Assembly (NCBI GenBank): GCA_007996965.1
Contig: BIMP01000001.1
Span: 1 to 64,000 of the forward strand
Direction: 5' to 3'
Source: a cyanobiont of Ornithocercus magnificus
GTDB lineage: Bacteria > Cyanobacteriota > Cyanobacteriia > PCC-6307 > Cyanobiaceae
Length of the DNA: 64,000 nt
In this document: positions 16,725-22,025 of the stretch, piece by piece
How the letters are laid out: the number at the start of each line of letters is the position of its first letter
Position numbering within the stretch: the stretch's first letter is position 1
Made by a program: the position numbers and the translations under genes
The notes under the pieces: generated by a model
Told to the model about the DNA's origin: nothing
Databases searched by the model: none
Seen by the model: only the letters and a program-made list of their open reading frames with translations

Positions 16725-17972
16725 TTATGATGTTGTAGTGAAGCGACGGAAGGTCTTCTTGCCTAGCTGTAGGATCTTGCCCTCTAAATCTGCTGGGTTG
16801 GCAAACTCATGATTTGGATCGGTGATTCTCTCTCCTGCTAGACGTACAGCACCACCTTGAATATAGCGGCGAGCTTCGCTGCTACTAGCACAGATACCAA
16901 CAGCACTGAGCAAGTAAAAGGCTCTAGCTGGAAAACCCACCTTTGCTAGCGAGACTTTAGGCACTTCCACAGTTGCTTCACTAGCACCAGGACCAGATAC
17001 CAATTTGGCAGCATCTACTTGTGCTCGCTCAGCAGCTTCTACACCATGAAGCTCAGCAGTTACCGCAAGGGCCATTGCCCTCTGCCGCTCACGTGGGGCT
17101 TGGGAGAACTTTGCTAAGTCTATATTAGTAAGTAAAGTAACGTAGTCATTAACCACTGAATCAGGCACTTTCTCGAGTTTAGAGTACATTGAGATTGGGT
17201 CTTCCTCAAGTCCCACGGTGTTCCCGAGACTTTTGCTCATCTTTTGCACTCCATCTAACCCCACCAAGATTGGCAACAGCAAGCCAAACTGAGTAGCCTG
17301 GCCAAGGCGCCGCTGTAAGTCACGACCCATAGCTATGTTGAATTTCTGGTCAGTGCCACCAAGCTCAACATCAGCATTAACCATCACTGAATCATAGCCT
17401 TGTAGTAATGGGTACAGGAATTCATGCAGGGCAATCGGCATATTGTTGCTATAGCGCTTGGCAAAGCCCTCTTTAGCTAACATTTGCCCTACTGTTGTTG
17501 TACCTAGCAAGTTGATTACCTGTGATAGGTCTAATCCTGCCAACCACTCACTGTTACAACGCACTTCTAGCCGACCAGGTGTCTGGAAGTCCAACAATGC
17601 TCGCTCAGGCGACTTCCCCTGTCCAAGCTGTGCTAGATAAGTTGCTGAGTTTGCTGCTACTACTTCAGCGCTAAGTTGCGTACGAGTTGCACTTTTACCA
17701 CTAGGATCACCAATGCGCGCAGTAAAGTCACCGATAATTAGCACAGCTGTGTGGCCAGCATTTTGAAATGCCCGCAATTTGCGGAACAAGATGACGTGTC
17801 CAAGATGAATATCTTTACCAGTAGGATCAATGCCAAGCTTGACTCGCAGTGGTCGATCCTGCTTACGTGCCCAAGCTAAGCGGTTGGTAAGTGTCTGCTC
17901 AGTATCTGCATGATGGCTAGCTGGAAACAGATCGGATACACCACGCTCAAGCCAGCTTGGTAGGGACATCAC
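16725..17972 (-). CDS. tyrS: Tyrosyl-tRNA synthetase
   Basis: TyrS charges tRNA-Tyr with tyrosine. The 415-residue protein is a class I synthetase with [11 protein letters not shown] (HIGH-like) near residue 57 and KMSKSLGN near residue 245. A C-terminal S4 RNA-binding domain contains [15 protein letters not shown]. Length and the [12 protein letters not shown]-terminus fit the bacterial TyrZ-like type seen in cyanobacteria. It lies about 60 bases downstream of the DUF1825 gene on the same strand and may share its transcript. Confidence 0.96.
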
Positions 17973-18033: not shown

Positions 18034-18360
18034 CTATAGCAAAGGCTCGTCGATTTGGCCTTTCATACGTTGAAGTGTCTGATTCATTTGCTCAAACATT
18101 TGCTCAGGGGTAATGCCAAATTGGGCCAACTGGGTACGTAGTTGCTCAACAGTGAGTTTGGCTTGAAAATCTTCTGAGAGCTCGAATCGCTTCATGAATA
18201 CGCGGTAGCGATCCATTAAAGTCTCCATCATCTCAATAAACTTTTTCTTCCCTTCACGATCGAATTTGCCATAGTCTCCACCTAGCTGCATCAGCTGTTG
18301 ATAGTCGCCGAACAGCCTCTTAGCCTCTTCCTGCACAATATCAGAGTCAAAGAAGGCCAT
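18034..18360 (-). CDS. DUF1825 family protein
   Basis: This short, mostly helical protein is conserved in nearly all cyanobacteria, function unknown. The 108 residues include [20 protein letters not shown], the phenylalanine- and methionine-rich middle [17 protein letters not shown], and a C-terminal amphipathic helix [19 protein letters not shown]. It starts at ATG 18360 upstream of tyrS. Confidence 0.88.
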
Positions 18361-19341
18361 AGCTGTACCTTTTATTCAGTCCCCTTGCTAGTAACAATTC
18401 TAGTACAGTAGGCGAGCAATGGGGATATCAAGTTCACTTGGACTTTAATCAGGTCTCGCCTTAGGACAGAATTGACGTCTTGGCGTTGGGGTTGGTTGAT
18501 GGTTTCAAGTAATTCTGGCTAAGGTCCTGAGATAGGAAAGGGTGGGAACCCGCCCAGCAGAGGATCAGATTGACTAGCAGTATCATCTGTACTTACCCAA
18601 GGAACCTAAGTGGGCAAAGCTAAAGTCTAGTCTACAGAGCGCTAGCTTGAGGTATAGAAAGTGTCTCTGTCTAACTCATCCTATGGCGGTAACACCTCAA
18701 AAGTCCTGCTAATAGAATGAGGACTATCTAATAGAATGAGGACTATGCTAAAGCGTAGCGAGTTACATAAGACAAGACTATAGTTCGATCTAGTCTGAGA
18801 GACTGGTCAGCGTACTCCCACCTGCTATTTTTAAGTCAATATTACCTCAGAAGCTAAATTTAAGTCAGCAAATATGGAAACACTGCTCACGATCCATCTT
18901 CAAACCATGTACTTGGATCTATCTAGTCAGTAAGTCCGCGCTTACTAGCAAATAACATTCCGACATGCTTCAGCTAGTTGTTTAAGGAATTCAGTGAGAA
19001 TATCCCGTACTTAGTTTACTCGCTTAGACAAAGGTCTTGGCGCTACCTAAGCCAACAGTTGCAACAATTCCCCAGCAAATTCTCTGATCATTGAATTGGG
19101 GTTGGGTCGGGACTCGTGAAAATCGGCTTCCTCATATATATTTTTGATTGAGTTAAAGAGGATCATTGACCTATGCTAACCTAGAGATATTCAAGTCTTG
19201 AACACAGAGCAAAGCAGTCTGTCTGCGCCAGCCTAACTTAAATTACTATATCCGAATCCTGATTTCGCGATAAGGCAGGGACCCATTCAATACAGGAGCT
19301 CACTCTATGAATTAGGCTTATTGTAAGTTTATTGCCCTGCC
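18361..19341. other. Long intergenic stretch (981 bases)
   Basis: I recognise no protein gene. A tandem 19-base repeat lies at 18709-18746. The segment 18470-18600 is GC-richer, with short complementary words (GGGTGGGAACCCGCCC near 18541), and could be a structured RNA, but I cannot match it to 6S, tmRNA or RNase P RNA. Confidence 0.35.
18709..18746. repeat. Two tandem copies of a 19-base unit
   Basis: CTAATAGAATGAGGACTAT occurs twice head to tail (18709-18727 and 18728-18746) with no mismatch. It is noncoding, and the duplication is probably recent. Confidence 0.9.
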
Positions 19342-19878
19342 ATGACCCAGGGTCACTGGTTGGATCCTCTGGCACGGCAGCTCCTAAGGAGCTTCGGTCA
19401 GCTGCCAAAATCACTAGAACCAGCATTCTACATCGATGTCAACCGTGCTAGCGCTGATGACTGGCGCCGCTTGCCTTCATGTAATGAGACTATGATCAAC
19501 TTATTACTACGCCTGCAACGCGGCGGTGTACAGTTTAGCCATGCTGAAGATTTATTCCTTTTACTAGACCTGCCGCAAGACCTATCCTCACGCTGGCGTC
19601 CTCATCTAGTCTTTCGTTGGTATAGTGAAGAGTCAACGCTACTTACACCAGGGCCTCTGGATTTAAACCGGGCTGATGCAGACACACTACAGCAGCGACT
19701 GGACTGGCCTGCAAAACGCTTAGAGAAGCTATTACAGGAGCGATCTCGCCGGTGCTTTGAGGATTTGGCTGATCTGCAAGAGCGTCTTAGTTTGCCAGCA
19801 GCAGTTGTTGAGACGTTGATCGGGAATGTTCGTTTCGGTAAGCGCCCTGCCGGGCCATCTTTGCCACCGCGAGGATAG
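19342..19878 (+). CDS. Helix-hairpin-helix (ComEA-like) protein
   Basis: This 178-residue protein has two helix-hairpin-helix repeats of the ComEA type. FYIDVNRASADDWRRLPSCN begins around residue 27, and LDLNRADADTLQQRLDWPAK around residue 103. Such repeats bind DNA backbones without sequence preference. No signal peptide or membrane anchor is visible, unlike true ComEA, so an intracellular role is more likely. The GIY-YIG gene starts 4 bases after its stop codon. Confidence 0.75.
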   Translation: MTQGHWLDPLARQLLRSFGQLPKSLEPAFYIDVNRASADDWRRLPSCNETMINLLLRLQRGGVQFSHAEDLFLLLDLPQDLSSRWRPHLVFRWYSEESTLLTPGPLDLNRADADTLQQRLDWPAKRLEKLLQERSRRCFEDLADLQERLSLPAAVVETLIGNVRFGKRPAGPSLPPRG

Positions 19879-19882
19879 TAGC

Positions 19883-20512
19883 ATGTTATCAACTTCACAG
19901 CAGCGCAGCCTGCTACCTACCACTTGGACAACGACAAACCTGAGTAGCGCACCTAGCTCGGCGATACCACAGCTAACCCAGGCTTTTCTAGAGAATTGGC
20001 AACGCCGGCTAGCAAATCACCAAGCACCACTATTCCGGAATGAAGCCAGTGAATATAGACAAGGTGTGTTATTGCCAATAGCTGAAGATGTTCTGGCAGA
20101 ACAACTTCAACCGCTGCAGTTGGAGCCATTGCGGTTGGACTTTTGGTCCTGGCCTAGCAAGCCCTACACGGGCCCTGCAATTTATTTAGTAACAGATCAA
20201 CCTGCAACTCTGCGTGAGTCCTTATTACTGTACATAGGTGAAACAGGTGCAGCAGAGAAGCGATGGAAGGGATCTCATGACTGTAAAGATTACCTGTCTG
20301 CATACAGCGAAGCTCTGCACGCAGCCGGGCTACAACCACAACTGAGTATTCGCTTCTGGATGGATGTGCCGGCACTAGCGAATGCTCGCCGTCAACTAGA
20401 GCAGAGCCTGATTCGTCGCTGGCTACCCCCCTTTAACAAGGAAGCACGCCGACATTGGAGTACTCCCTTCACCACTGACTCTGTTGCTGGCTACCTCGGA
20501 AAACAGCACTAG
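19883..20512 (+). CDS. GIY-YIG nuclease-like protein
   Basis: The central part matches the GIY-YIG nuclease fold. AIYLV stands for GIY, LLYIGET for YIG, RWKGSHDCKDYL gives the conserved Arg, and RRQLEQSLIRRWLPPFNKE gives the metal-binding Glu and terminal Asn. I start at ATG 19883, right after the HHH gene stop, giving 209 residues. The 80-residue N-terminal region is cyanobacterium-specific. All catalytic positions look intact, so DNA cleavage is possible but the substrate is unknown. It overlaps no other gene when pepA is started at 20538. Confidence 0.75.
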   Translation: MLSTSQQRSLLPTTWTTTNLSSAPSSAIPQLTQAFLENWQRRLANHQAPLFRNEASEYRQGVLLPIAEDVLAEQLQPLQLEPLRLDFWSWPSKPYTGPAIYLVTDQPATLRESLLLYIGETGAAEKRWKGSHDCKDYLSAYSEALHAAGLQPQLSIRFWMDVPALANARRQLEQSLIRRWLPPFNKEARRHWSTPFTTDSVAGYLGKQH

Positions 20513-20537
20513 CATCAGGCCACTGCTGCCTGAATCC

Positions 20538-22025
20538 ATGAAGATCTCGACCAATCAGGCCACCCTGGTCGACTGGTCCGGGGAGTTTCTGGCCGTGGGC
20601 GTACCGGCTGGCGATCATCACGGACTTCTTGAAGCACTTTACTCACGCTTTGGCGATGGCTTGAGGCGTCAGCTTGAAGTTCAGAACTTTTCGGGCAAGC
20701 AATCAGAGCTTGTAGCATTTTCATTGTTGGATATTGCCCCCCAACTACTGCTGCTTATAGGCCTTGGCGAAGCTGCACATCTAGATCTCAATGGACTTCG
20801 TCAGGCTGCAGTGAAGGTAGCGGCAGCCTGCCGTGGCCGCAGTGGAAGGCTAGGTCTGCAGCTCCCTTGGGAGACATTTTCTCCCCAAACAGCTACGTAT
20901 GCTGCTGCAGAGGCAATCTGTCTCTCTTATTACAATGACCAGCGATTCCGCAGTGAGTCAGACATAAGTGCACGACCCGATGAGCTCATTCTGCTTGGCT
21001 TAACGGCAGAAGCAATTCCCAACTTGATGGATGTACATTCAGTTTGTGCAGGGGTAAACTTAGCTCGCGACCTAGTAAATGCTCCAGCGAACAGTCTGAC
21101 GCCAGACGAGATGGCGAAGACTGCGCAATGCCTAGCAGAAGATTATGGTCTTGAACTCACAGTGCTGGACCGTGAAAAGTGTGCTGAGAAAGGCATGGGC
21201 GCCTATCTCGCAGTCAGTCAGGGTTCTGCTCTCAATCCCTGCTTCATCCACCTGACCTATCGTCCACCAGGTTCTGCTAGTCACCGGCTTTGTCTTGTAG
21301 GTAAAGGTCTAACATTTGATTCTGGTGGTTACAACCTCAAGGTTGGAGCAGCACAGATCGATATGATGAAATATGATATGGGGGGGAGCGCGGCTGTACT
21401 AGGAGCCATGCGTAGCTTAGCTGAGCTACAACCGCGTGGTGTAGAAATTCATGCAATTATTGCAGCCTGTGAGAATATGATTAATGGCAGAGCTATTCAT
21501 CCGGGAGACATTGTGCGTGCCTCTAATGGAATCACTATCGAGATCAACAATACTGATGCTGAAGGCCGCCTTACTCTAGCTGATGCTTTAATCTATGCTG
21601 GTGAATTGAATCCTGACGCCATTGTTGATTTGGCAACCCTAACCGGTGCTTGCCTTATTGCCCTTGGTGACGAGATCGCTGGTCTTTGGTCCCCAAACGA
21701 TACCTTAGCAGAGGGAATTAGGGTTGCTGCGGAAAGAGCTGGTGAGGGAGTTTGGCGGATGCCGCTACCAGCTTCTTACCGCGAGGGTCTAAAATCAAAG
21801 CTAGCCGATCTACGCAACACTGGCCCTCGACTGGGTGGTTCAATTACAGCTGCATTGTTTCTCAAGGAGTTCGTAAGTCAGGATATTCCCTGGGCACACT
21901 TAGATATTGCTGGAACTGTATGGACAGATAAGGATCGTGGTATTGATCCAGCCGGAGCTACTGGCTTTGGTGTTCGCACCTTAATTAACTGGGTACTCGA
22001 TCAGTCTGACCAGATTGATGCCTAG
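20538..22025 (+). CDS. pepA: Leucyl aminopeptidase (M17 family)
   Basis: This cytosolic metallo-aminopeptidase recycles peptides and can also bind DNA in some bacteria. I use ATG 20538 (MKISTNQATLVDWSGEFLAV), 495 residues. An upstream in-frame ATG at 20484 overlaps the GIY-YIG gene. The zinc and catalytic motifs are GKGLTFDSGGYNLK and NTDAEGRLTLADALIYA. The N-terminal macro-like domain covers roughly residues 1-165. It is the third gene of a co-directional set. Confidence 0.95.
   Translation: MKISTNQATLVDWSGEFLAVGVPAGDHHGLLEALYSRFGDGLRRQLEVQNFSGKQSELVAFSLLDIAPQLLLLIGLGEAAHLDLNGLRQAAVKVAAACRGRSGRLGLQLPWETFSPQTATYAAAEAICLSYYNDQRFRSESDISARPDELILLGLTAEAIPNLMDVHSVCAGVNLARDLVNAPANSLTPDEMAKTAQCLAEDYGLELTVLDREKCAEKGMGAYLAVSQGSALNPCFIHLTYRPPGSASHRLCLVGKGLTFDSGGYNLKVGAAQIDMMKYDMGGSAAVLGAMRSLAELQPRGVEIHAIIAACENMINGRAIHPGDIVRASNGITIEINNTDAEGRLTLADALIYAGELNPDAIVDLATLTGACLIALGDEIAGLWSPNDTLAEGIRVAAERAGEGVWRMPLPASYREGLKSKLADLRNTGPRLGGSITAALFLKEFVSQDIPWAHLDIAGTVWTDKDRGIDPAGATGFGVRTLINWVLDQSDQIDA

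Follow-up and report, generated by a model that had tools for sequence, protein, structure and literature searches.

The endonucleases of the GIY-YIG fold are defined by the tyrosine of the GIY motif, the Tyr-x-Gly of the YIG motif, an arginine, a histidine or tyrosine, a glutamate, and an asparagine. In UvrC one half of the protein is of this fold, while the other half is RNase H-like plus HhH2. The closest described relatives of the nuclease-like gene considered here (gene B) are the N-terminal domain of UvrC, T4 EndoII, and R.Eco29kI, which have the same kind of catalytic residues and a similar predicted fold. Gene B is unlike these enzymes in that it has its own invariant RW.G.HDCK and PFN blocks, N-terminal peptides of the clamp type, and no counterpart of the UvrC C-terminal half. 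A second comparison is with NucS/EndoMS, the nuclease fold of which differs from GIY-YIG. These enzymes are found in other lineages than B, and a mismatch activity is known for NucS/EndoMS and not for B. Their endonuclease activity is described as enhanced by the sliding clamp (PMC8228993), and B would work alike.

The consensus given for partners of the bacterial beta clamp is QL[S/D]LF (PMC9690074, PMC3716654). The first of these sources puts the bacterial clamp motifs at the C-terminus; according to the second, internal motifs are less common but known, and the clamp motif of E. coli UmuC is QLNLF at residues 357–361. A pentapeptide of this type, QLNLF in UmuC and QLGLF in Pol II as these clients are described, is shared with B, which differs from the known clamp clients in being a GIY-YIG protein and in carrying its two or three motifs towards the N-terminus. 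No published GIY-YIG clamp client, and no account of B itself, was found in the literature searched, which was mostly open-access and partly titles and abstracts. The HhH2 domains of the gene adjoining B (gene A) are in common with ComEA and type II secretion protein K (T2SK), from which A is distinguished by its tandem pair of domains, by the full hairpin glycines being seldom kept, and by there being no membrane anchor seen by eye in the copy described here.

The window, by which is meant the whole stretch of 64,000 nucleotides that was analysed, is part of a 1.88 Mb genome in 16 contigs that is 95.6% complete. The 4 base spacing between genes A and B that was reported in the original prediction is correct, both being on the + strand (Table 1). 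Upstream are two genes in the opposite orientation, one that we take to be tyrS and one for a protein of 108 aa that is presumably DUF1825-like. Downstream of B the open frame of the aminopeptidase overlaps the end of B, although an ATG at 20538 is the likelier start of this gene. In the Cyanobiaceae the arrangement around B is tyrS-DUF1825-(A)-B-pepA, with or without A. The two upstream genes are present in 63 of 63 Cyanobiaceae loci with enough flanking sequence and the aminopeptidase gene follows B in 75 of 77. The approximately 980 bases between the 108-aa gene and A (18361–19341) have no likely gene, and no Rfam match was found in this stretch or near the A-B pair; the comparable gap between open frames ranges from -109 to 2912 among the relatives.

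Table 1. Positions of genes A and B, their domains and motifs, and their neighbours within the window
Feature	Position	Strand	Basis
Gene A, ComEA/T2SK-like, two HhH2 domains, 178 aa	19342..19878	+	ORF (start ATG to end of stop) and translation, family profile, AlphaFold2
A, first HhH2 domain, residues 30-92	19429..19617	+	Model; ComEA 8dss Z 9.6, rmsd 2.0, 65 aligned
A, second HhH2 domain, residues 104-165	19651..19836	+	Model; T2SK 6utu Z 7.5, rmsd 2.1, 60 aligned
Gene B, GIY-YIG nuclease-like with N-terminal clamp-type motifs, 209 aa	19883..20512	+	ORF (start ATG to end of stop) and translation
B, residues 7-11 QRSLL, site of the first clamp motif (most homologues have Q-x-x-L-F)	19901..19915	+	
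B, residues 47-51 QAPLF, middle motif, Cyanobiaceae-specific	20021..20035	+	
B, residues 60-64 QGVLL, site of the last clamp motif (many homologues have QGSLF)	20060..20074	+	
B, GIY-YIG domain, residues 98-187, invariant RW.G.HDCK and PFN blocks	20174..20443	+	Alignment; AlphaFold2 block means 87-97
Leucyl aminopeptidase-like gene (pepA), downstream of B	20484..22025	+	ORF; identity recognised from sequence
Conserved 108-aa protein gene, upstream neighbour (presumably DUF1825-like)	18034..18360	-	ORF, synteny
Conserved upstream neighbour, presumably tyrS	16725-17972	-	ORF, synteny

That the GIY-YIG site of B is apparently complete, as had been proposed, is supported by the alignments. The residues Y101, Y117, G119, R127, H132, E173, and N185 are all present and are invariant in 93 of 93 aligned homologues, as they are in the 42 sequences of alignment A1. 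Loss of catalytic residues in relatives, which the original prediction had named as counting against it, was looked for and not seen in these 93. Also invariant in the 93 are E120, T121, W128, G130, D133, C134, and K135. The window copy has A-I-Y instead of G-I-Y as its first motif.

Matches to the profile libraries are weak. The GIY-YIG family PF01541 scores 17.1 bits against the window copy, below the cut-off of 22.6, and matches 35 of 42 members of the B family at E ≤ 1, the best being 5.8e-6. There is no NCBIfam match of weight among the 42 members, and no PHROG match to the window copy, and when PDB sequences were searched with the profile of B the outcome was one chance match only. The AlphaFold2 model has a mean pLDDT of 83.8, with residues 1–30 at 52–59. 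In VIA its fold matches T4 EndoII (2wsh, Z 7.1), Eco29kI (3nic, Z 6.4), and the UvrC N-domain (1yd5, Z 5.9); the ten best rows are all EndoII, Eco29kI, and UvrC N-domains with Z of 5.5–7.1, all less than 8. The top six Foldseek matches are to Eco29kI, the best with E of 0.17 and none under 0.1. We read B as a core endonuclease with a GIY-YIG-like fold, predicted to cut DNA.

The N-terminal part of B, with its Q-x-x-L-F motifs, was overlooked in the original prediction. Over the first 75 residues conservation is poor save for the Q-x-x-L-F sites and single residues such as W39. In an alignment of 42 rows, Q7 and L10 are invariant and Q60, L63, and F64 are conserved at 90% or more. The pentapeptides of this region in the family are QLSLF, QPSLF, and QGSLF, with the first motif mostly QLSLF, QPSLF, or QLNLF. 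The window carries weak copies, QRSLL, QAPLF, and QGVLL, three of three of which fit the loose pattern and one of three the strict pattern.

The motifs came to notice in the first 93 sequences, and 50 held-out loci then served to test them, nearly all from new genera (L226 and L153 both belong to genus g52, and a few of the held-out loci are congeneric). L205, L239, and L241 were excluded, giving 47 with a readable N-terminus; of any N-terminus exceeding 90 residues only the final 75 were kept. A strict QxxLF is present at least once in 46 of these 47 and in two copies in 30, with two copies of the loose pattern in 41; across 1000 residue shuffles, which ignore relatedness, the means for the strict motif are 1.9 sequences with at least one copy and 0.04 with two. 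The third residue of the first motif is S in 26 of the 47 and N in 10, which resembles the published QL[S/D]LF consensus. Within the first 25 residues, QxxLF occurs in none of the 943 other ORFs of the checked loci, these being mechanical ORFs that were unchecked as genes. The loose form of motif 1 is general, present in 80/81 Cyanobiaceae and in 58/59 other B sequences, while the middle motif is found in 78/81 Cyanobiaceae versus 1/59 elsewhere, and all three motifs together, in the loose form, in 76/81 versus 1/59.

In the AlphaFold2 model, motif 1 is within a low-confidence tail (pLDDT of about 55), and its spacing from W39 ranges from 6 to 39 residues in 137 of 139 sequences. The variable spacing and the disordered tail mean that motif 1 behaves as would be expected of a docking peptide. 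The last motif is in a loop between short helices (pLDDT of about 80). The middle motif forms the end of helix 33–51, which is modelled with confidence (pLDDT of 96 for block 41–50), and may therefore be structural.

Y-family polymerases and, as a second positive control, clamp-loader delta subunits gave a mixed outcome; L250, L251, and L272 were left out of these reads and those of DnaN, and L247 and L266 were in the wrong frame. Three of six Y-family polymerase genes of these genomes have QQSLF, QQDLF, or QGELF near residue 350, not far from the QLNLF of E. coli UmuC, and the other three are without a strict motif. The strict Q-x-x-L-F is in none of eight delta subunit reads, one of which was in the wrong frame, with two more delta loci left out, and three delta proteins carry Q-x-x-x-L-L at residue 292. 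DnaN ends with YL(V/I/A)MP(V/I)Q in seven of eight reads, the eighth being in the wrong frame and a ninth locus left out. Separately, no Y-family polymerase (PF00817) was found in the genome of the window, at 95.6% completeness, or in genomes G233, G215, and G351.

Our preferred reading, to which we give a probability of roughly 0.57, is that B is a putative clamp-tethered repair endonuclease, which its Q-x-x-L-F peptides would bring to the beta sliding clamp (DnaN); both the nuclease and the binding are predicted from sequence. In favour of it are the motif conservation, the tail position of motif 1, the peptides of three Y-family polymerases, the DnaN ending, the invariant catalytic residues, and the presence of B in all 88 Cyanobiaceae in one arrangement. 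It is weakened by the N-terminal position of the motifs, the helix that ends in the middle one, the weak motifs of the window copy, the three Y-family genes and the delta reads without a strict motif, the 107 other genomes that lack B, and fold matches below Z 8. B would dock on DnaN by a peptide in the flexible N-terminal tail and another in the loop before the catalytic domain, with a possible third docking peptide between these in the Cyanobiaceae only. Two or more peptides per B could occupy both clefts of the dimeric clamp. By way of the clamp, B would be parked on replicating or freshly replicated DNA, where the GIY-YIG site of the clamp-held protein would nick a lesion or structure. A may assist B, the substrate and the contact between A and B both being conjectural.

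Gene A had been described as carrying two ComEA-type DNA-binding repeats. Two ComEA-like domains are present, the AlphaFold2 model having two four-helix HhH2 domains with a mean pLDDT of 88 and pTM of 0.48, but DNA-binding by A is not established. The full pair of glycines, the GhG hairpin, is typical of HhH motifs that bind DNA, and it is complete in only one of 24 A members at hairpin 1 (L055) and one of 24 at hairpin 2 (L057). Hairpin 1 keeps its first glycine in 20 of the 24; the window copy reads LPSC, with the glycines lost. All 24 aligned members are matched by HHH_3 at E ≤ 1, and the window copy reaches 16.9 bits, below the Pfam cut-off of 27. The A family profile matches the HhH parts of EEPD1 (9yi2, E 2.4e-9) and ComEA (8dss, E 4.2e-5). 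No signal peptide or membrane segment was seen by eye in A of the window. Two A relatives outside the Cyanobiaceae (L139 and L140) have an N-terminal stretch that, by eye, resembles a TM2-type membrane domain.

Searches covered the cyanobacterial class, with one scan of genome contigs beyond it. An initial sample of 60 genomes had B relatives in 46; class-wide (completeness ≥ 90%) they are present in 281 of 388 cyanobacterial genomes, these being all 88 Cyanobiaceae, with the genome of the window counted, and 193 of 300 others, the remaining 107 being without B. Gene A is in 309 genomes, 51 of the 88 Cyanobiaceae and 258 of the 300 others. Outside the Cyanobiaceae, 159 genomes have both genes, 99 have A only, 34 have B only, and 8 have neither; if anything this association leans negative (odds ratio 0.38, p 0.015, without correction for relatedness). 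The presence lists behind these figures were transcribed manually, and their totals of 281 and 309 match the tallies. The original prediction had treated A and B as a joint module and had itself stated that independent distribution of the two genes would speak against this. The 99 A-only and 34 B-only genomes are such a distribution, and an obligate A-B module is ruled out. What stands of the suggested DNA repair or recombination module is a plausible repair role for the nuclease.

The observation of an HhH protein adjoining an intact GIY-YIG protein does hold, and in the Cyanobiaceae the two are closely coupled. A adjoins B in 48 of 80 named loci, these being the best 80 of 338, biased to close relatives and with one strain represented twice (L065, L095). 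The A-B gap in the Cyanobiaceae is between -4 and +9 bases in 42 of the 46 loci measured, out of 48 linked, where the use of the start codon nearest to the A stop favours small gaps. A and B of the Cyanobiaceae are probably made from one message. Because 37 of 88 Cyanobiaceae retain B without A, including the 1.6–1.7 Mb genomes of genus g18, A is not required by B, and most simply the gene arrangement is a fixed one from which A was lost. A would be a ComEA-like HhH accessory, translationally coupled and dispensable to B, which it may assist.

Beyond this family the close coupling does not extend, A and B being unlinked in most genomes with comparable positions, and no conserved neighbourhood of B was seen by eye in 11 loci outside the Cyanobiaceae with two genes considered on each side. 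In family f11 (G046 and G065) A and B are on the same strand, 0.5–0.7 kb apart, with a gene in G046 between the two that by eye is acetyltransferase-like. In G040 (L152:5025-7050) a gene that by eye is photolyase-like is 8 bases from B on the same strand. Two large genomes of family f32 (G361 and G325) have B as several fragments or partial copies. A contig labelled as a Rubrivirga sp. MAG (L091) bears a cyanobacterial A-B locus, which is probably a binning error.

The coupling of a GIY-YIG gene to an HhH gene was the basis for the proposal that they represent UvrC split into its two functional halves, forming a nucleotide-excision module. This proposal is contradicted on four counts and may be taken as ruled out, its remaining probability being negligible. 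The separate uvrC that the original prediction had asked about is present in full in the same genome (contig C1 near 1377666, TIGR00194 E 4.1e-178), no RNase H-like domain was found by Pfam in A or B at E ≤ 10, A is ComEA-like with the UvrC C-terminal half matching its structure at Z 2.4 only, and A and B are distributed independently. The closest solved relatives of A include ComEA proteins, and competence genes including comEA are reported to matter in S. elongatus (PMC7125226), which would be consistent with a pair that processes incoming transformation DNA, with A as a ComEA-like receptor and B as a nuclease making single strands. This is improbable, given that all 37 Cyanobiaceae without A keep B, the 1.6–1.7 Mb genomes of g18 among them, that the window copy of A has no visible means of export or anchoring, and that the clamp-type motifs of B point to the cytoplasmic replication machinery. 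That T4 EndoII and Eco29kI, a restriction enzyme, are among the fold neighbours of B could suggest a defence, homing, or otherwise mobile nuclease, which is very improbable for a gene with so fixed a chromosomal place in the Cyanobiaceae. Searches of viral contigs and of phage records gave no relative of B, and there was no match to the defence models of PADLOC.

An alternative closer to the preferred reading, unlikely though deserving of attention, is that the Q-x-x-L-F peptides serve in docking to something other than the clamp or have a structural role, B then being a GIY-YIG repair nuclease that is recruited by other means. The high-confidence helix that ends in the middle motif and the loop (pLDDT of about 80) that contains the last one would both be compatible with this, the N-terminal placement is unusual for clamp motifs as these are described in PMC9690074, and the delta subunits of the control reads lack the strict motif. 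Against this, the motifs of B fit the published clamp consensus, motif 1 is in a tail at a variable distance from W39, and peptides of this type, as described in PMC3716654, are present in half of the Y-family polymerases of the control.

A more specific role for a clamp-tethered B is suggested by the mismatch repair genes of the Cyanobiaceae. MutS (MutS_I) is found in 379 of 388 genomes and, as all nine misses are outside the family, in 88 of 88 Cyanobiaceae. MutL is matched at E ≤ 0.001 in 315 of the 388 genomes and over the 180-bit cut-off in 293, which, as judged by E-values, are none of the 88 Cyanobiaceae versus 293 of the 300 others. Eighteen Cyanobiaceae have MutL matches with E from 1.6e-7 to 8e-4 only and were scored as without MutL, since such E-values should not be able to reach 180 bits. 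MutL_C is not matched in the genome of the window or in G034 and is matched in six other genomes of the same test. Outside the family, three genomes have no MutL match, G056 and G342, where B is present, and G165, where it is absent. Where an endonuclease-type MutL usually has DQHA, the cyanobacterial protein has EQHxAHER. This endonuclease-type C-terminus, with ACR and CPHGRP kept, is present in six of six MutL sequences read from outside the Cyanobiaceae (L258–L263). Several P. marinus strains are reported to lack mutL, and all cyanobacteria to have mutS (PMC5101192).

B is present in all 88 genomes of a family in which MutS occurs without MutL, although one clade counts as one event. The coincidence in a single clade of the middle motif, the lack of MutL, and universal B is suggestive, B itself being older than the clade. 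It could be that in picocyanobacteria B makes the incision in a mismatch repair that does without MutL, where MutS would find the mismatch and the clamp-held B would nick the new strand, the orientation of the clamp being the strand signal. The third peptide would have arisen in the lineage that lacks MutL, and elsewhere a two-peptide B would work beside an endonuclease-type MutL. We offer this more specific scheme as a speculative and improbable extension. B as the simple opposite of MutL, or as an ancestral replacement for it, is rejected; B is also in many cyanobacteria that have MutL, so its ancestral role was not MutL replacement.

B is universal in the tested Cyanobiaceae (88/88), the family of Prochlorococcus and marine Synechococcus, yet in the libraries searched it has no model beyond a weak GIY-YIG match. 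If B does bind the clamp, a class of nuclease is added to the bacterial clamp partners. A clamp-bound B would also make testable how the picocyanobacteria, which have MutS and no recognisable MutL, correct their replication errors.
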